64,000 nt of DNA from Halisarca cf. caerulea (taxonomy: Eukaryota; Porifera; Demospongiae; Chondrillida; Halisarcidae): the NCBI GenBank assembly GCA_963170055.1, contig CAUJGJ010000332.1:2471001-2535000 (forward strand), written 5' to 3'. The position numbers were made by a program, and so were the translations under genes. Of this stretch, positions 43,498-64,000 are shown one piece after another (position 1 is the first letter of the stretch; every line of letters starts with the position of its first letter). A model generated the notes under the pieces. That model saw only the letters and a program-made list of their open reading frames with translations. It made no database searches and was not told the origin of the DNA.

Positions 43498-45934
43498 ATG
43501 AAGGTGAAACGATATAAGCATGCGAAGAAAGTACTATCGTTTTACAAGAATACGTTCGGATACAGGGAACCATTCCAGGTCCTTGGTGAGTAGGTCCTTT
43601 CTGAGTATTGATTCAGTGGTACGGTAGTGTTTTAGGATGTTGTCTACATGCGTGCAGTGGACGGGACTTTCTGTCAAGCAGCATTGAAGGGGAAAATTTA
43701 CATCAAGGAGCAACTGCCCAAGTACTTTGGAAGCTCAGTCCAGTTAGGTATGCATTTCAGACTTGTCGTTTTCCTTGAGGAAGAGTAAGGTAAAGGGGGG
43801 TAATTTGAAACACAGTGGTAATTTGGAACAGGGCCTGTAACTCCTGTTGTGATTAAGTCACTCGGCCATCCTTGCCACTGCCAATCTCCCACTTCATGGA
43901 GACGATACAGACGAGAAGTAATGGATGTAGCTTGTGGTTGACACTGCTTTTGGCCTGACTGTTCCAAATTTCCCCACTTTACCTTGAGCCTTGACAATTG
44001 AACACACACAGAAGCTTTTGTATTAGGTTACCTTACTACCTTAGTATTTTCTCACCTCCTGTGTATGATTGAGGTGTAGCATATGTTATCAGGTGTCAAG
44101 ACTGGTAAATAGTTCCTGTACATGCATGCAACCGGTCTATGTTTTCTATTGTTGATATTGAGTCTTCATTAAAGTAGACAGCTGTCACCCACTTCTGCAC
44201 TTGTTTCTCTGTATTGTGCACTGTGCACTGTCTAGTCTCATACCCAGACCCTATTTTTCCCCTCCGTTTTCAAATGAGTGATGTCCGACCAATGACGTCA
44301 GTCAATTGAAAATGGAGGGGAGAATAGGGTCTGGGTACAAGACTATGAACTGTCAGGTACTGTGCACTGTCGGATACTATGCACTGTTAGGTACTGTGCA
44401 CTGTGCACTGTCAGGTACTGTGCACTGTAAGGTACTGTGTACTGTGCACTGTGCACTGTCAGGTACTGTGCACTGTGCACTGTCAGGTACTGTGTACTGT
44501 GCACTGTCACGTACTGTGTACTGTGCACTGTGCACTGTCAGGTACTGTGCACTGTGCACTGTCAGGTACTGTGTACTGTGCACTGTGCACTTTGGTGTGA
44601 CTTGGTGGTCACTAGTCCTTCCTCAAGATCATGCAGGCTCATTCAATGAATGTTCGTATATTGAAAGGTGTTGAATGTGTTCTTTTACTCCTTTTTGAAC
44701 AATGACTTGCGTACCTGCGTACTGTGTATTGTAGCACCAGTGCTGATATCCAATGCAGTATTGCTTGGATTGCCATCTTTAGCAACCGTACAGTAGAACT
44801 GGTTGTACATTTCTGAGGCAGTGAAAACGAGGTATTGACACCGTTAACCACCCAATATAAACAAGAAAATTAAGTTCTTAACATGCATAGCATGCATATG
44901 TGTGTGGAAGCACACGGAAAACAAGCATAACAAGGCAACATAAATGCTTTTATCCTTGATTAACTTTGTTCATGAGTTTAGTGACAATAGTTGGACAATG
45001 ATTTATGAAGATTTACGAGAATTCACTGTACATATGAAGTTTTTCCATGTTCACCGATGTACTGTATAACCTGTCTTACTGGCCACCTGTCTATAATCTC
45101 ACAGCAGGCACATCCATGGGGTGCTGCACATATGCCGTCGCACCTGCATACGTACATGTGTGTACAGAGACTACCTCGGAGTCTGTTTCAGAGGATGCAA
45201 TTACTTGTTCGTTTGATTGATCTTTGTCACAGTATATGTATATCATAACCATTATGGCACTGTTGTATACCCATGGTATGCAACAGTGCCATAACATATA
45301 TACGTATATATATATTTATATATATATTGTTATGCTTATTGTTATTGTTGTTATGCTTGTTTTCCGTGTGCTTCCACACACATATGCATGCTATGCATGT
45401 TAAGAACTTAACTTTCTTGTTATAACAGTGCCACAATATATATACGTATATATATTTATATATATACATGTACCTGCTCGTATTTGACACCTGCTGGAGT
45501 AGCACATAGTCCTAGAACATCGTCTCATAGCACTGTATGCGTGGATATTTACTGGTCCTTAATTGTATGATATTACTGAGGGCCTAACCTGAGGATATAT
45601 TTTACATTTTTCCAGTCACGACAAGATGTATTGCCGAGGAAATACGCTCTTTAGGGCAGGATTTTTATGGTGCATCCTTGGTAGCACAACGATTTTCTCA
45701 TCGAAACTGTGGACACACGAAGAAACGTGTGAATGCAACAGAATGTGTACTATCCATGATAGGTGCGTAAGCAGCTACAAGTATATATGTAGTTTCTTGT
45801 TCTTGGCTTTGAATGGAAACCCAATGGCATACATTTTTGTGTGTTACTCTGATTGTGCAGGTGAAAGCAATTCAAGTCATTTTGTAGTAGCATCACAAGA
45901 CAAAGATGTTCAAGAGAAATTGAGACTAATTCCT

Positions 45935-46984: not shown

Positions 46985-48440
46985 ATAAAATAGAACCATA
47001 GATAAGTCAAATTATGCAACTGAAGCAGGCACACCACAACACACATAAGAGTTTTACAATCTTGTGATCTCTGCAAGCTAGGTCCACAATCACAGCAGCT
47101 TTTACATCTGTGCTCAAGTTGTTGAATTCATTGTTCAGTTCACCTGCAAGCACCTGCAATATTAATGGGTAGACACTGATTCGACCATACAGGGCAGCTC
47201 CACATCCAGTGGTATACATCCTCAATCATGCCGTTAGCACACTCCCGGCAAACTCGATCTTCTCGTGCTACTCCCTGCCACCTGCCTGTCTCCACTTGGA
47301 AGTGACCAGTGCCACCTCTCAGTTTCATGAACATAGAGCGGATGACCCTATCCTGCACTCACCAGCATCTCTGGGTTAAGCTAAGATCAAAGATCTTATT
47401 CAACAGACTCAGCTTGGGTTTAGTTACCATCTCTGCATGGTGCCATTCGGACATGATCCTTCTCTCAGCACAATTTTGCAGCATCCCTTGTAACTGTGAA
47501 CCATTGCAACTCCTCAATTCTTGGCAATTTACCAAATGGTTATTCCATCCAAATGCTATGAAACAACCCATGTAGTAGTTTTCTCATCCAACTGCCTCTA
47601 CTCACTGATAGAGTGTCCAAATTAAACCACTTTCTTTATGATACGGTTCTCATAATCAGGGTGGGTCTTCACTTCATGCCAAACGACACACATCTAACTC
47701 TAGCCTCCCAACACAGAGGAAGACTGCAGTCCATCTCTGCAAACAAGGATACTCTCGGGTGTGATCTAGCTACACCAAAGAACGATCTAAGAAATCTCAG
47801 TTGAAGCTGGTCTAAACACATGAGAGATGTGTTGCAGCCCCACACTTCAGAACCATAAAGGTTCACAGATTGCACCATGCATTCAAATAGTTTCTTGAAG
47901 TACTGACCAGAAAGCATTCCAACAGAAGTTCAAACACGTTGAAGGAGAAGGTTTGCCGCTCTCCTCCCAGCCTCCATTCTATCTACAAACATAATAATAT
48001 TATGTCATTCAAATCAAGAAATTCATTGATACAACACCCAAGATACTTATTGGAAGATACCAGAGGAATAACCTCACCATTGACGGCAAATTTGTCTTGA
48101 CATTGTTCACAAGATCTATCCCTGAAGTGGATAATTACACACTTCTCCACATTCACCCACATGCCCCACTCCTGACACCAGTCTTCCAGAACATGCAGGC
48201 TCTGTTTGAGAGTCTTAGCATCCTCCCCAAACAGGGAGGTATCAGTCTGCATATAAAAGACCTGGTATCTGAGTACTACCACTAGCCACTCCACACTGTT
48301 TTAGTGTTAGATCATCGATCAGCCCATTGATGTAGAGGGAAAACAGCATAGGGACTAAACACACCCTTGCCGAAGACCAACCCCAACGTGAACTAGAGGA
48401 TCACTATAAGCTGACCCGGCATCAACCTTAACCATACATA
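46985..48440 (-). pseudogene. Decayed non-LTR (LINE) retrotransposon, RT and C-terminal part
   Basis: On the minus strand, with frame breaks: a VGLRQGCV..PMLFSLYING block near 48330-48390, then SLFGEDAKTLKQSLHVLEDW and VNVEKC near 48100-48240 (the YADD box is decayed to MQTD). SNKYLGCCINE lies near 48030, NLYGSEVWGCNTS near 47850, and GGTGHFQVETGRW plus the Cys/His motif RECANGMIEDVYHWMWSC near 47230. It ends in DLACRDHKIVKLL near 47070. The layout fits the C-terminal half of ORF2 of a Jockey/CR1-like LINE. Truncated and dead. Confidence 0.8.
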
Positions 48441-48804
48441 CATTTGTATGTATGTAACATTATGTAATGTGTACATACATACTTCCAGGGTATTTGGCAC
48501 ACTAAACAAGATGAATTCAAAATAGCCCTACTGGACCTACTAGTTGTTATGTGCAGTGAAGTGCCTACAACAAAACCGGCATATGCGGTATACACACAGT
48601 TAACATGGTTTCCTGATGAGCAAGGCTCTGAAGTTTTGATGACCAGACATTAATTCTGGAAAGCATTCCTTTCAGAGAGCTTTCCAAGCAATTGGTGAGT
48701 TATTTTGATAAACATAAATGGCATGCAGCGGATTCTACACCAGCCATTTTAAACATGCATGTACAGTATACATGTGTCATCCTGATTGTACGGCAAGCTG
48801 TTTG

Positions 48805-51548
48805 TAGTCTCATGTAACACAGACCCGCTAGTCTAGCATTGCACAGACCCTCTTGCCTCCATTTTTTTATTATGACGACCAAATGACAAAACAAAAACGA
48901 AGAAAAGAAAACTTTTCCCGGCGAGAATAAAATGCCGGCCGGAAGTGGGGCTGAGAACGAGACTAGACTTGTTCTGGCCACAGAACATCGGTGGATAATT
49001 ATGTATATATGCAGTTGTCATGGTAATAATGATATTCATAAACTGAACGCATTGCTGATGCAAAGGCACTGTTCGCACAATCTTGCCGCCAGCCGCTCGC
49101 CGCTATACCAGAATTCACGATTTTGAAAATTGGTGAGGTGTGGACTGAAAAAATTGATATTTATGTAATATGTATATTTTACCCCAGGTTAGACAAGCTC
49201 ATACAACAGATCTTCGTCACTGGCAATATAAATCATTTTCAGGAAGTTTCTGCCGGCAGTGCCTTGATCTGCTACAAATGTCGTGATGACTTTGAAACCC
49301 TAGATAAGGTCGAATCTGATCGAAGCTAAAGCTCTTTGAATGAAGTTGACAATGTTTGTGGGCAATTAACCTTAGCGTGGTGTCATCAGCAACTAGACAG
49401 ACTCTGCTGTCATCAGAAAATGAACTGTCCATATAGAAGGAGACAACCTGCATGATCATCACGCTGATTTCAAAGGTGGTTGCACTCCCAAACGAATGTG
49501 TCCTGATGGTAGCTCCACACTTAGGCAGCATCTAAGAAGAGTCAGTTATGGCATTGAAGTTTCTTCTAAACCTTCCCCGAGTGTGCTGTAAGTATGTCAT
49601 GCATTGCATATATATCACTCTATAGCTGTGACAATTTCATTTTCTGATTCAGTACAATTTGTTCATTTGTGCATGTGCATATATGCATGTACTGTAGGTT
49701 ACTTATGGTTATGACCAACCAAATTCATATATTTCTTGAACACTCCACTGAGAAAACGTACGGCAAGGCAACTTGCTCGATGAAGCTATGGTGCAATGAT
49801 GACTGACTTTGGACAATCAGTGTACCACAGACATCTAATGCCTAATTTTATTGTGCAGACAATTTGCAAGGAAATACGGGCTTCTAAGTTTGGTTATAAT
49901 GACTCTTACATCTAAAGAGTTGCAATTTAAAGAAATTTACATGGAGTTCTCTGCTGGAGCAATTGAGAAATAACTTGCCCACTTTGCTATATTATTTTCT
50001 TTCTAAGCTGATCAGAAATCTTGATTCTAACAATTTAGCCGATTCTCTGTTTGCTATATCTTGTATCATCCTAAACAACAAAAATGTGTGTTTACTTCAA
50101 GGAGTGATTTTTGCTCTAATGTATGGTAATGGATGCAGCAAACAGGTTAGCATAATATTATATGATATCCATTACATACATGGACAGTATTGATTCCTAT
50201 ATGTGTCATTTATTTCGAATTCTGCAGATGTATATATGTCTATCTGCAACCTTTAGTCTGTGTCTCTCACACAAAGTAACTCTTAATGTGCATGATTGAT
50301 GACTTAATATGTAAAGATCATGATTATGTGATTGTGAGGCAATGGAGAAACGAAATAAAGGTATGTATTATTATAATTTTTGAACCATATGCATGCAGTG
50401 TGTACAAATCAAACCTGCATTGTATATATGCATATAAATGCATGTAGTGCCTGCATGGATTCAGAATTGAATGATGGCTTGCATGTGGGACTGTATGGAG
50501 GAAGGCATTGAACATGCTGAGTCAGAACATGCACATGAGTGCTAGCATAATGATCCAGAATCTTCATCAGTGGAATCAGATACAGAAGAGGGTGTATCTG
50601 AGCATGATATCTCGATCACTAAAGATGTCAATGAGGATGAGTCAGGTCAAATATATTATAATAATATTATATTAATATTCTATTAATTATTATTATTTTA
50701 AAATGCATGGTTACAAAAGTGCATTAATATTACAAGAAGCATGCATGCATGCAATTATATGATTGTAATTATAGGATTATTTATATACACAGGTCCTGTG
50801 GTAGAACACATGGATGAGGAGGACAATACATTGTCACCACCATACCAACAGGAGTCAGAAGAACCAGCAGCAACAGATGTAGCTGAGGACTGGATGGGAT
50901 ATGTCATTGTGGGTGATAACATAGACAAGAATATTCGACCATCTTTTCGGCAAATGGATCACACGAACATTTCACTTCATCACTTTACTGATTTTGCCTC
51001 AAAAGACAGGATAAATACGACAGAATGCCATCACTTGCCTGGTAATAGCTTTCTGGATGTTACATCCCTTCTACCATCAAAAGACGACATTGCTCACATG
51101 GAGGATGAGTTCTCTATATTGATTTCAAGGTATAATATTGTATGCATGCATGTAAATTTAACATGCATGCATGGTTTATTGTATATCGTATACTAAATAT
51201 AGGATTTTGGTTGAGAACATTAAAGAATTTTCTACAGCTAGCAAAAGTGTGACATGGCATATATCATCCAAATACACTGAAGAAATGGCCACCATATCAA
51301 TTACGTAGTACATGTAGATTGCAATTATTGCACTTCAATTATAATAACACATGCACTTTGGAATGGACTTGAATGCCATGTACCTTTAGTGCATGCATGT
51401 GTTGTTTTTTCTTACTCCTATGCAGATTCCCCTGGGCACCATCCAGTGTAATGAGAACAATTTAGAGGACATGTGTACAATATCGCCGACTAAATGACGT
51501 CATAATAAAAAATGGAGGCGAGAAGGGTGTGTGTGTTACACGAGACTA
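48805..51548 (+). mobile_element. TIR element enclosing a DUF6589 gene, 9-bp target duplication
   Basis: The left end (tagtctcatgtaacacagac, continuing 'cctccatttttt.attatgacg') and the right end at 51496-51548 are inverted copies over ~50 bases. A 24-base insertion, partly duplicating the end, sits in the left copy. The flanks agctgtttg (48796-48804) and agccgtttg (51549-51557) form a 9-bp duplication with one mismatch. Inside, in the plus orientation, lies a broken DUF6589 protein gene. The right TIR abuts the SSUH2 promoter region. Five small MITEs in this window share the TAGTCT end and a 9-bp duplication. Confidence 0.8.
49245..51480 (+). pseudogene. DUF6589 family protein, 3'-truncated copy
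   Basis: Coding blocks with splice-like borders: a Cys motif LICYKCRDDFETLDK near 49268; TLLYYFLSKLIRNLDSNNLAD through MYGNGCSKQ (about 49975-50144); an acidic exon near 50545-50645; VGDNIDKNIRPSF, SLHHFTDFASKDRI and LPSKDDIAHMEDEFSILISR (about 50793-51129); ILVENIKEFSTASKSVTW (about 51202-51305); and IPLGTIQCNENNLEDM (about 51426-51473). I recognise the GDN.DK..RP and KDRI signature of DUF6589. The second half of the domain, which should contain a GGDQ motif, is absent because the element's right end follows at once. Early frames contain stops, so it is probably dead. Confidence 0.75.
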
Positions 51549-51712
51549 AGCCGTTTGTAACACCCGTAAACACCGAGGTAAGGGATCCTATCCCCGGGCC
51601 CAAAGTCTCTATACCCATGCAGGGTAAAATTTCAAACCGATCGCGCTTACCCGATAGAGCGGAAGTGGGTGGGAATAGCGAAGGTCGTCGTTTCCTTGAA
51701 TAAAGTCGGGGG

Positions 51713-53212
51713 ATGGCTAACTACGGTGCAGTTGGTCAAGGTCCTCCACCACAGATGGAACCAGCTTACAGGGGAAACGTCCCTGTAGAAGACGTGGACG
51801 AGAATTCAGCCGTTCGGCAAGCACCAAGTGCTCCTCCGGCTCCATTACCCTCCCAAATCGGGTTTCAAATTGGAGGATACGAGAACGTTCAGTACCAAGA
51901 AAGTAAGTAGTGCTCGGTAGGGCGGATTTCTCGTCACGCACGAACTTGACCGAACGTTATATCAGATAGACATCTTATCTTGTGCTTTACCATAGACACT
52001 CTGTGCTATGTAGTATATAGTGTGTCTATGGCTTTACAGCCAAACAGAGGTACCATAATGCGTATAATATGATATGTACGAGCAAAGGGGGTGAAGCTGG
52101 TCTGCTCTCATCTTGTGTGGCAACCAAGACATGCAATGTCGTTCAAGGGATGATATGATGGCATTGATGACAAAAGCACGGCGTTGTTAGGAATTATGCA
52201 GAGAGTGTAACAAATTAAATATTTAGCCCTAGATAGTGTAACTACGTAGCATAGTCTAGAATATATATAATTTAACCATACAGAATATTGACAAGCCATA
52301 TTAGACCAGGCAAAGTTAATTCCCAGTTTATCGTTTCCGCCCGCATTTTATTTGGCTTGCGCCTGACTATTTTCATTATTCATTATTTGATCAAAGACGA
52401 GTCTAGCAATTACTACGTTACATTACTTTCATTAATTTGAATTAAAAATGTGATTTTAATATGTACGTGTAGTTGTACATGTATTAGTCTTAAAACAAAT
52501 TCATGATATAATACCCTCATTTGTTTCATTATTATTGTTTGCATTAACTTGAAGATTTTATTATTATGATCAAAGTGTACAAATACATACATAAAAAAAT
52601 TGTAAGTGCATTTTAATACAAATGAATAATGAAAAATGACCTCCCTCCCTCATGCTATAATTTAGAAGGTTTGACGATAAACTGGGAATCAATTTTGCTT
52701 GGCCTTAAATGCTTTCTATACATCATATTCTGATAGTTACATGCGACCCTCAGTAATTTAGAAGGCATATGGCCTTCTCTGAGCAGGCATGCATAATGCA
52801 TTTGATTACACTGTACACTTGGACTAGCTTCAAAGTGGCAAACATTCTCCATTGTTATTTGTAAATTCCGCAGTGTGTCAACAACTTGAACATGGATACT
52901 ACAATTTTTTTTACAGATTTTAATATTTGGCATTCTACAAAATCACTAGCTCCACCCCCTACAAAGCACTTTTGTGTGATTGTTTCCAGAACCAAAGTCC
53001 GACCATCAGCACTGATTTATGATCCCCCTAGTTCAATGTGTAAATGTATGAAAAGATTTAACAGATATTGCAAGTATATGTACAGTACATGTGTACCATC
53101 TAAAGTGTTGGTCTCGTTGTCACACAAGACAACCTCTATCCTCTTTATAGTCTTGCTTCAGCAGACTTTTGTGTTTGTGTGTACAATGTCATGCATGTAC
53201 GTACGTGTGTGT

Positions 53213-56900: not shown

Positions 56901-58490
56901 GAACAAATAAACAATTTTCATCGGTCCTAAGTACAGCCTATCCTCAGCTTTTCATTAATTGGGTCCTGGCTGTCAGAGGATGTCACCCAGTGCTACTGAT
57001 ACCATAGGTGGAGGAAGATACTTTTAGTTGGGGGGGGGGGAGGGGCATAACTAATGCAAGCTAAACTAAAGTACGTACATGTGGTAGAGAAAAGTTGATC
57101 ACATACTCATTATTGCATCATCAGATTCTACAATGGCATCCAGAGAAACGGCTGCCAATTCAGAATTGATTACAACCTTCATTTATATCTTTCAATTTTC
57201 CTTAAATTGTGGTAGAGAAGCTTTTTAGGACTCAGTATAGCTACATTTATAAATAAGGGCTTCTAACGTGCACCTATTGCTCAAAATTAAGTATATAAAA
57301 GAATTTTTCAAACCTTGAAAAAATGTGGAGGGGCACAGCCCCCCCCACAAAAAAAACAAAACTTGAGGGGGCATGTGCCCCCTGTGCCCCTATGGTTCTG
57401 CCGCCTATGGATGAAGGGGGGTATTCCCCGAAAAGGCCTTATAGCACACTGGTGAAAGATTGTGTGAGGATTTGATCTGCCATTATAGCAACCTTTTCTG
57501 TTACAGCATGCATGTGTATTATGTGTTTCCTCCCTGATCGTTGATGATCATGCTAAAGGTTGTCATTGTCATTGTCACCCCTTCAACCCAGGACGGGTAC
57601 AAATGAGGGACCAATTAAAGGTTGAAAACTAAAATTATGATGTGTATTTACGTATGTGACCTGTGAGAGTAAACTAAATGGGTGCATGCAACAGTGTCTG
57701 TACTGATGTTACATAAACCTGAAAGATTGGTAATGTTTCTGGTGAATTTGTATCCCTCTACATCATATTGTACTGTACTCTCTCCTGTTGACACCTCTCC
57801 TGCATCTGCATGGACACAGTGCATGCTGTGTTCTATCACCTCAGCTGTAGCCCAGTAAAAAGCAGAGTTTTTTTAGTGTGTATTCTTTCCCTGATCATCT
57901 GTACATGCATGACACTTAGCTGCTGTCCAGCAGTACAGATGGGATCAAGTGTGAAACTGCTAATTTCATTTTCCGTTTTGAATCAATGTGTATGTACAGA
58001 TCCACAAAAAACTCTCTTTAGATGTTCTGTAGCATTGGATGGGTAATGTTGGGCAATTATGCCAGAATGGTATAAAACAGGTCTTATTGGTCACCTAGAC
58101 CTTTATCAGCCTCATGTAGTGTAGTCTGGCCTGCTCGACCATCCCTGCAAGGACCTGAGGGGCGGTTAAAAAGGTGGTCTAGCAAGCCAGACTACATGCA
58201 GTGTTGGTACTCCACTGATGGAGAATTGTGTTTGTGCAAATGGTGAAGGGCTGTTTGTGTGTAGCTGGTGAAGGGCTGTTTGTGTGTAGCTGGTGAAGGG
58301 CTGTTTGTGTGCAAGTGATGAAGGGCTGTAATGTGTGCAAGTGATGAAGGGCTGTAATATGTGCAGCTGATGGAGGGTTGTTTGTATAGACTTTATCTGA
58401 GGTAAAATGTGTTTGGGCTCCAAAATAACGATATGTTCTCTTGAAAACTTGTTTATGTTTCATGGATGCTTTGAGTTGGCTGTGTGTGTG

Positions 58491-61500: not shown

Positions 61501-64000
61501 CCAGAAAGATTCTTAATTGTCATTGGGACAGGGGCCCAATATTCTTGCCTGTGGTGGCAGACATTACTACTTCAGTATGTACAGGTCTATTGTACAGGTC
61601 TGCTGTACTGATCTGTTGTTCTGATCTGTTGTACTGATCTCCTGTACAGATCAGCTGTACAGATCAGCTGTACAGATCAGCTACAGATCAGCTGTACTGA
61701 TCTGCTGTACTTAGTCTCGCACCCAGACCACCTTCGCCGCATAGAACAATTAGGGGCAAGACTATGCTGTACTGATCTGCTGTACTGATCTGTTGTATTG
61801 TACTTGGAATGTCCCCCCCCCTCTCCCCGCATAGGACATTCTACATACTTGTCCTCACCTTTGTTGATCTTTATTCATTGCATGTTTGTTTGCTTTACAT
61901 CCATGTAGCCATGTCACAAGTGTGGTGGCTGTGGGCACTGCCGTTGCCATTCCTGCTGTGGGAGAGGAAGGGTGAGTAAATGTCTCTCTGTATGTGTGTG
62001 TGTGTGTCTACTCTTTTATGTCTGATAATATTCTATATGCATTTTTATTTATTGATGTGTACTATGACTGGTAAGGTTGCATGCATTGTGTGTATATGTT
62101 TCAGTTTAGAGGCAACCAATTGTCTTCTGTATGAAGTACAATACGTACAGTATTCAGTTTTATTCTTATTGTGAGTGATACACTGAGTGAGGTGTGGTAC
62201 ACTATATGGAGTACTACCTTGTCAAACTGTTCTGGATTCCATAACTAATTATATGGGCAGCCATTTTTTGGCATATTCCCTACATTACTGTACTCCATGA
62301 TACAGTTCACTCAGTTTATCACTGAACATTATTCTCTGAGTAGTCGTGTATCCTACATATTCCACATGTTCAAGCTTAAATCTAATTTTGTGAGGATATT
62401 TCATGGTTTGTATTCTCTCCTGTACCTTCTACAGTTGCGTTGTGCTACTTGTGGTGGGAAAGGGTGGAGACAAGTGATGCATCATGATGACCACCACGAT
62501 CACCATGACCACCATCACCATGGTCACGGGCAACATCACCATCACCACCACCACCACCATGGTCCAGGTACTGAACCTTGCCCATTTTGCCATGGAAGTG
62601 GACGCAAAGTGTGAGTGTTTATGTACTGTATGTGGTGAACTAGGGTGCAGTATAGTTGTTAGAAAGTGTAATGAATACAAGAGCAGAAAGATGTCTTTGT
62701 CCTTGCTGCCCCTCTTTTCTGCAAAAGGTTTCCTGTAATGATTTAGCAAATGCAATACCAACTCCACTACTCCTCTAATCTTACTACTTGAGCACAAAAT
62801 TGTTACCTCATTGATGTGTTTGGAATATCAAGATTTCTCTCTGTATTAGTATTGCTGTATAGAACCCAAACAAGATCTGCTCTTGTTGTGATGCCATGTG
62901 CAAGGGGTACCTCTGCACCTTATGCATGTACTTTTGTGCAGCTGCTTCACTTGTAATGGACATGGCCAAGTGAGGTGTGACATCTGCCAAGCTGCTGGAA
63001 AACTGAAGTTCTATATCGAGCTGACAATCAACTGGTTAGTTAGCTTTTGTGTTATCTGTTGCTTTAACTCTACACTAATATTGAAGACATGATACAGGAG
63101 TAATGAAGTCTGCTATATGTGCACTGTGTGACCTCTGCACAACCCTTGGGATCATAGTAAGCTGTCCTGCGTATGGAGGTGTCCTTGGTTTGGAGGGTTT
63201 CAATGTTGTGGTTGCCCTTTGGAGAGGGTTCATTCCCAGGTGTGCAGAGGTTCTTCCCTACAACAACTGGAACTAATGTAATAAACATCCTTCCTCGGTC
63301 TTCCCTGCACTATTTCCTACTGCCCTTTACCCTCTTTCCTCTATACAATGGCTTCATATCCTGTGTAGGTTTGTGTTGCTCATTTTTCTTACATTAGCTA
63401 GCAGAACTGCAATACAGTGGCCACTGTTTTCTTGTGGTAATCCATTATGCGTTTACATACCAAAGCAGACATGCCTATGCGTGTGTACATGAAGAGTACA
63501 GTATGTATTCCTAACTATGTGAAGCTCATCAGTAGGCTCCTGCACAGTACTAGGTTTTCAGTGGGATAGAGGTGTTCTCATTCTAGCCGTTTGACTCTAT
63601 TGCTTCTCTTGAACAGGTACTGATAACCATAGATACTATGTACGTATATACTGTACATTCTTAAAGTATACATGTGATAACCATCTGTCAATGTTGAGCT
63701 ATTGCATCCAGAATGAGAACATTGGAGTTAGCTGCTTATGTGTCTAAATGTTCTGAATTTCACAAACATTCCTCCTGTATTCAGCGCTGCACATGTCATG
63801 TCCATGTATCTTTGACACCATGTGAATTCCCTCTTTTGTGACAAGCAAATCACCAGTACTTGAGAGGTTACAATGTGTCCCGTAATTAACCCTTCATATT
63901 AGACACATATTAATCTGAAAACAAAATGGATGGTAGTACTGCAACTTGATTCCTCTGTTTGTGATAGGGTCAACCACAAGTTGGACCACATTGTTGAGCG
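51713..64000 (+). CDS. SSUH2: SSUH2 homologue, 3' end beyond the window
   Basis: Exons seen: 51713-51902, 53473-53551, 53621-53750, 56018-56203, 61909-61971, 62435-62610, 62942-63034 and 63968 onward, all in phase. The N-terminus is Pro-rich and disordered. The family core follows: EEQARECLLEYVGEHCCYGK, YTLETFTEKR and GPAPMPWDIQVQKPPPFQNE. A DnaJ-type Cys-rich region comes next (PCHKCGGCGHCRC, RCATCGGKGW, PCPFCHGSGRK, CFTCNGHGQVRCDIC), then the start of the C-terminal domain (KLKFYIELTINW, VNHKLDHIVE). The vertebrate relative is linked to tooth development; the molecular role is unclear. A His-rich insertion interrupts the Cys-rich region. The introns are unusually large for this window and full of tandem repeats. 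Confidence 0.9.
52314..52705. mobile_element. Foldback/MITE in SSUH2 intron 1
   Basis: The left arm starts accaggcaaagttaattccc at 52314, and the right arm is its inverted relative ending near 52705, with ~27 of 30 positions matching. Weaker pairing continues inward ('ttttcattattcatt'). Target duplication not resolved. Confidence 0.65.
53217..53320. repeat. (TG)n microsatellites in SSUH2 intron 1
   Basis: Two TG runs (53217-53258 and 53277-53320) separated by 'cattgtatgtgtcac'. They are non-coding despite being read as open frames on both strands. Confidence 0.95.
53833..53919. repeat. (TG)n microsatellite in SSUH2 intron 3
   Basis: About 87 bases of nearly pure TG beginning about 85 bases after the exon that ends at 53750. 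Confidence 0.95.
54352..54490. repeat. 37-bp tandem repeat, ~3.7 copies
   Basis: The block 'agacattctatactacgta' starts at 54355, 54392, 54429 and 54466, an exact 37-base period. The units are virtually identical, so the expansion is recent. Each unit contains the palindromic tactacgtacta core. It lies in SSUH2 intron 3. Confidence 0.95.
55575..55675. mobile_element. Fragment of the CCGTATATCCGG MITE family
   Basis: 'caaattgccaaatttaatgc' and 'ctcaccaagtttcccggtat' echo the interior and end of the element at 10295-10500. The copy is partial and diverged. Confidence 0.4.
56259..56445. repeat. ~92-bp tandem duplication
   Basis: Blocks starting 'aatgaaatca' at 56259 and 56351 run parallel through 'aacataatgc.tggtcactg' and 'ttatgccagt' with scattered changes. 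Two copies, in SSUH2 intron 4. Confidence 0.75.
57002..57410. mobile_element. Putative MITE, CCATAGGYGG-ended, with G/C-run subtermini
   Basis: The left end ccataggtggaggaa and the inverted right end (ttctgccgcctatgg) match at 12 of 15 positions. G-rich and C-rich runs follow just inside each end ('ggggggggggaggggca' and 'ggggcacagccccccc'). Target duplication not resolved. Confidence 0.5.
58122..58194. mobile_element. MITE, TAGTCTGG-ended, 73 bp
   Basis: The left end tagtctggcctgctcgacca and the inverted right end (tggtctagcaagccagacta) match closely. The flanks catgtagtg (58113-58121) and catgcagtg (58195-58203) form a 9-bp duplication with one mismatch. It is a sister of 42481-42564 and lies in SSUH2 intron 4. 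Confidence 0.75.
58233..58395. repeat. 25-bp minisatellite, ~6 copies
   Basis: 'gaagggctgt' recurs at 58245, 58270, 58295, 58320 and 58346, with a diverged sixth unit, so the period is 25 to 26 bases. It starts 40 bases after the TAGTCTGG MITE, in SSUH2 intron 4. Confidence 0.9.
58484..58556. repeat. (TG)n microsatellite in SSUH2 intron 4
   Basis: About 70 bases of nearly pure TG repeat. Confidence 0.95.
59390..60225. repeat. 29-bp minisatellite array, ~830 bp
   Basis: A tandem array of the unit types 'ctgcactcctctgctactct' and 'actgctctg', mostly a 29-base period with 15-base and 14-base variants. It contains no stop codon in any plus-strand frame. Because 29 is not a multiple of 3, all three frames read the same Leu/Cys/Ser/Ala-rich repeat in rotation, so the ~290-330 codon open frames here are not a gene. 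It lies in SSUH2 intron 4 in the sense orientation. Confidence 0.95.
61577..61800. repeat. 13-bp tandem repeat 'ctgtactgatctg'
   Basis: About ten imperfect copies, some as the near-palindromic variant ctgtacagatcag, interrupted by the MITE at 61712-61764. It lies in SSUH2 intron 4, about 110 bases upstream of the exon at 61909. Confidence 0.85.
61712..61764. mobile_element. MITE, TAGTCTCGCACCCAGACC-type, 53 bp
   Basis: The left end tagtctcgcacccagacc and the short inverted right end (gggcaagacta) lie between identical tgctgtact flanks (61703-61711 and 61765-61773). The site is inside a tandem repeat, so the flank identity is weaker evidence than elsewhere. It is the smallest member of the TAGTCT group. 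Confidence 0.6.

Follow-up and report, generated by a model that had tools for sequence, protein, structure and literature searches.

The AcademH lineage of the Academ DNA transposons was reportedly described by Kojima in 2020 (Mob DNA 11:15). In the later literature, AcademH is distinguished by target-site duplications of 9 or 10 bp and AcademX by duplications of 3 or 4 bp, a trait tied to the encoded helicase and nuclease (PMC10045372), and AcademH is recorded from animals and fungi (PMC10045372, PMC10799480). A "RecQ Helicase in Academ" is listed in PMC3627910, and the Academ DDE profile of Yuan and Wessler (2011) is applied in PMC10294476; the subtelomeric RecQ helicase genes treated in PMC4522978 are not a transposon with terminal inverted repeats (TIRs). 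Here an element is described at positions 48805–51548 of a window of 64,000 nucleotides, the whole stretch that was analysed (C308:2471001-2535000), from the 194-Mb genome of the sponge Halisarca cf. caerulea. It carries the relic of a gene of the DUF6589 family (PF20231) and is, with a probability of about 0.85, an internally deleted, non-autonomous copy of an AcademH-type cut-and-paste DNA transposon.

The initial annotation had reported inverted ends starting with TAGTCTC, flanks matching at eight of nine positions and a DUF6589 relic between them; all were found where it placed them, and the observation is confirmed as real. The left TIR (48805–48877, + strand) starts with TAGTCTC, and ends similar to it recur in the genome, while the right TIR of 66 nt (51483–51548, − strand) reaches up to 94% identity over its 66 nt to genomic ends elsewhere. 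The flanking duplications, to which no strand is assigned, read agctgtttg on the left (48796–48804) and agccgtttg on the right (51549–51557), an 8/9 match. The outermost arms (48805–48829 and 51524–51548) match at 84% and the following ones (48842–48877 and 51498–51533) at 75%, with 90% in a core formed by 48848–48867 and 51507–51526. The left end contains an additional 24-bp partial repeat of the terminus (48805–48828 and 48829–48852), and embedded in it is a terminus from another family of TIRs, of the TAGTCTCGTTCTCAGCCCC type and like that of the related element L062 (48911–48965, − strand).

The relic itself runs on the + strand and was read largely by comparison with L059, a full-length relative in the same genome. 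A decayed N-terminal part with a CYKC zinc-finger-like stretch (49187–49591, by-eye likeness to the L059 reading) is backed by open reading frame (ORF) pieces at 49042–49329 and 49424–49591, and is followed by a second decayed stretch (49903–50193, compared by eye with L059 5594–6088). The stretch at 50795–51130, resembling L059 4529–4987, includes GYVIVGDNIDKNIRPSF...KDRI and, within the motif VGDNIDKN, the putative first catalytic aspartate. The start of the next exon, IPLGTIQCNENNLEDMCTI, occupies 51426–51482, the protein relic IPLGTIQCNENNLEDMC starting at 51426, and is truncated by an internal deletion. In the alignment, element base 2679 connects L059rc 2786 with about 6637, which places the unstranded junction at 51482–51483; about 3.85 kb of L059 is absent, from L059rc 2787 to about 6636, which leaves the window copy without the helicase and the latter half of DUF6589. 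Identity to L059 is 89.6% and 85.8% in the long segments and 83–95% in shorter ones. Three protein pieces of the window submitted alone gave no Pfam match; a related locus on contig C284 does match PF20231.

A PF20231 profile search of the genome gave at least 124 matches (102 of 187 candidates scored), merged into 90 loci. In five separate elements (L059, L060, L061, L062 and L069) DUF6589 is enclosed by TIRs and by exact 9-bp duplications, an arrangement that the initial annotation had proposed. Since L059, L060 and L061 were picked for flanking TIR matches they are not an unbiased sample, and the duplication of L060 is weak evidence because it sits within a tandem array of the identical 9-mer. 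Other loci (L062 and L067 to L072) were fetched without prior knowledge of their ends; L070, with 3101 N, was excluded, and TIRs were found in four of the six testable ones (L062, L067, L068 and L069). No TIRs were found at L071 and L072. A scan of L001 to L008, each holding just 1.5 kb per side of the match, detected no TIR pair. Among the loci fetched blind, the duplication is exact over 9 bp in L062 and L069 and measures 8 bp in L068, the left flank of L067 consisting of N and lying outside this comparison.

The TIR arms of L059 to L062 are 63–149 nt long and 95–100% complementary, those of L069 85 nt and 95%, and those of L067 and L068 89–96 nt and 100%. The full-length relatives measure 5.9–8.0 kb, nested insertions in L060 and L061 included, their inverted ends begin with TAGTCT and their genes contain introns. 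The insertion in L060 (5105–6943) holds a hAT transposase ORF of 612 aa, and that in L061 (1932–3857) a reverse-transcriptase ORF of 641 aa. L067 and L068 are 99.6–99.8% identical across about 7 kb and have different right flanks, indicating recent movement.

Duplication length was also surveyed over a wider set of ends. Among 36 candidate TIR pairs, 19 have duplications matching at 9/9 and 5 at 8/9, several of the others being alternative pairings of nested ends. A hand-picked set of 26 pairs, one per place and with the better pairing taken for nested ends, a choice that favours good matches, comprises 18 exact 9-bp duplications, 4 at 8/9 (the window copy included), 1 at 7/9, 1 exact 10-bp and 1 exact 8-bp duplication, and 1 pair with none; cross pairs reached 8/9 or more in 0 of 650 cases.

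The second gene of these elements is a helicase. Matches to PF00270 and PF00271 (DEAD, Helicase_C) were found in L060 and L062, PF00271 together with a sub-threshold RecQ_Zn_bind in L059, and helicase relatives placed by coordinates in L061 and L069. A helicase relative lies at most 8 kb away at 78 of the 90 DUF6589 loci, compared with a mean of 3.9 and a maximum of 11 in 200 random placements, for which 2 Mb was assumed for contigs of unrecorded size; a second helicase query, from L062, gave 151 matches that do not enter this count. Relative to the nearest helicase, DUF6589 is convergent in 46 cases, on the same strand in 32 and divergent in none. The convergent order is that of L059 to L062 and L069, the single-strand order that of L067 and L068, whose ends begin with TAGTCTGG.

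As regards the protein, two AlphaFold models (pLDDT 86 and 82), P0002 and P0043, with input alignments of 61 and 49 sequences, respectively, predict an RNase H-like fold into which a helical segment is inserted. Both begin with two long strands, a helical stretch and then strand-helix-strand-helix-strand, and continue with the long helical insertion and another long helix. In P0002, D114 lies within the first strand (109–120), D262 directly past the strand 257–261, and E578 within the helix 573–594 that follows the insertion. The aspartates of the GDN and GGDQ motifs are located within the first and fourth strands of the model or next to them; like E578, they stand where catalytic acids are expected. 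Counting the sequences that cover each column of alignment A5, D114 is conserved in 17/17, D262 in 33/33 and E578 in 52/54; the GGDQ aspartate that the initial annotation had predicted for the missing half is accordingly present in the homologues. The histidine H297 of a DWH/DFH motif is found in 34/34 covering sequences, the column of the DWH aspartate being covered by just 2. With VIA-align, the first 14 and the first 9 rows contained solely DDE transposases or recombinases, the top structural matches being Hermes, P-element, ISCth4, Transib and RAG1. A Foldseek search against the PDB returned nothing at E ≤ 0.001, its E-values being weak, and the structural case is made by VIA-align, topology and conservation, the D-D-E triad having been placed by topology. 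On these models, the proposal that DUF6589 is a DDE transposase is well supported. Moreover, a zinc-finger-like stretch was seen by eye ahead of the catalytic part in N-terminal exons of L059, L060 and L062 (ERCSICP...YACKSC in L062), and is perhaps the DNA-binding part of the protein.

The named homologues among the PF20231 matches listed come from sponges (Ephydatia, Amphimedon), bivalves (Mytilus, Pecten, Argopecten, Saccostrea), a hemichordate (Ptychodera), a coral (Oculina) and a fungus (Ceratobasidium), and the near protein relatives among the matches listed from Ephydatia, Amphimedon and metagenome contigs. In viral contigs 14 stretches fitted a pattern, and none of them encodes a relative.

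Taken together, the helicase, the 9/10-bp duplications and the Academ literature make AcademH the best home for these elements. They have the duplication length of AcademH, a RecQ-type helicase encoded by the element itself, an RNase H fold with a D-D-D/E triad (here from predicted models and conservation) and TIRs (L059–L062 and L067–L069, with L071 and L072 excepted). Membership is probable on the strength of the helicase, the duplications and the occurrence in animals and fungi, and it is a likeness by description, the transposase sequence and the terminal motif lying outside the comparison. Consequently, the initial annotation's phrase "uncharacterised lineage" is not supported: a RecQ-like helicase in full elements along with duplications of 9 or 10 bp is what published accounts report of AcademH.

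The catalytic domain also invites comparison with hAT (Hermes) and P-element transposases, the best structural matches, which share with it an RNase H-like fold that contains a helical insertion, while identity in the alignments is 7–10%. Elements of the hAT and P groups generate 8-bp duplications and are not known to carry a helicase. Furthermore, PMC9587614 attributes a C/DxxH motif to hAT, P and other groups; its counterpart here is DWH/DFH, shorter by one residue. KolobokH resembles the present elements in combining a RecQ helicase with a DDE transposase, but Kolobok duplications are TTAA and 4 bp long according to the same source (PMC9587614), those found here being mostly 9 bp; KolobokH was ruled out by the 9-bp duplications and by ends without TTAA.

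That DUF6589 elements constitute a separate, undescribed superfamily, sharing the helicase and 9-bp duplications with AcademH and having an unrelated or deeply diverged transposase, is unlikely. It draws on the fact that the AcademH link was made without direct comparison to Academ sequences, and on the finding that the name DUF6589 occurs in no paper of the library searched, which consists of Creative Commons-licensed PubMed Central articles; however, the helicase, the 9/10-bp duplication and the animal and fungal occurrence all agree with AcademH, and Academ is, according to PMC10294476, nearly bivalve-restricted among molluscs, the named mollusc matches here being Mytilus, Pecten, Argopecten and Saccostrea. 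There is equally little to recommend the more specific version, a DDE superfamily of its own apart from Academ, joining a hAT/P-like catalytic domain with helical insertion to a RecQ-type helicase and 9-bp staggered insertions. The association of helicase and DUF6589 at 78 of 90 loci could also be read as a sign that the helicase is central to mobilisation and DUF6589 an accessory DNA-binding protein; this is very improbable, given the RNase H-like models with their conserved D-D-E set and given that nine ORF stretches from L059 to L062 contain no further transposase domain besides the nested hAT ORF of L060 and the nested reverse transcriptase of L061.

The initial annotation had called the duplication Mutator-like, which is apt for its length and for nothing else in the comparison. 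The 9-bp duplication and the long TIRs would suit a Mutator-like element (MULE) with a captured gene, but the MULE transposase domain (PF10551) had no match in the nine ORF stretches of L059 to L062, the three window pieces or six database relatives, and a helicase is found instead, which to our knowledge is not a MULE feature; such an element is hardly conceivable here. Finally, short elements with these ends are abundant and the window copy has a mosaic left end, as might be seen if two unrelated miniature inverted-repeat transposable elements flanked a host DUF6589 gene by chance. This explanation was rejected as next to impossible in view of the five full elements, in which DUF6589 and the helicase are enclosed by matching ends and exact 9-bp duplications, and of the near-identical L067 and L068 with their different right flanks.

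For the AcademH-type transposon preferred here, the anatomy, the predicted fold and the duplications point to cut-and-paste transposition by the DUF6589 DDE domain with a 9-bp stagger. The DUF6589 protein would bind the inverted ends, excise the element and insert it into target DNA, the joining sites on the two strands being 9 bp apart, and repair of the 9-base gaps would produce the 9-bp duplication. The helicase would probably assist by unwinding the ends or the gaps during transfer or repair. A large internal deletion would have given rise to the window copy, which would be mobile only with enzymes from another copy. PF20231 is still labelled a family of unknown function, and a probable one, transposase, can now be given: many of its predicted proteins are probably transposases and not host genes, so that the label becomes replaceable by a testable function. 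If the AcademH reading is true, the lineage is already known and the main gain is a likely job for DUF6589, along with the biochemical question of why a cut-and-paste element bears its own RecQ-type helicase.

Short elements with the same ends are numerous in the genome. In the window, 4 of 85 ordered TAGTCT...AGACTA pairs spaced 50–9000 bases apart have flanking 9-mers agreeing at 8/9 or better, against 0 of 461 control pairs, and each of 579 comparably frequent control 6-mers gave one such pair at most; the window therefore holds the element with the DUF6589 relic and three short, non-autonomous ones with similar ends. The latter, all unstranded, lie at 44233–44345 (duplication 8/9), at 58122–58194 (TAGTCTGG...CCAGACTA ends, 8/9) and at 61712–61764 (TAGTCTCG...CAAGACTA, 9/9). 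The empty-site search for the window copy and L059 returned just their own two flanks. At the genome scale, contig C369 (14.2 of 194 Mb) carries 46 of the 90 DUF6589 loci, hAT matches appear by eye to be concentrated there too, and the contig is perhaps a chromosome rich in transposons, or an unusual one. Downstream of the right end of the window copy, a 64-aa piece starting with MANYGAVGQGPPPQ has no Pfam match; the element ends about 170 bp upstream of this candidate start codon (region 51548–51716), possibly in a host promoter region. Just left of the element, fragments resembling a non-long-terminal-repeat reverse transcriptase (LYINGLIDDL, LLYAD) were recognized by eye at 47983–48400 on the − strand.
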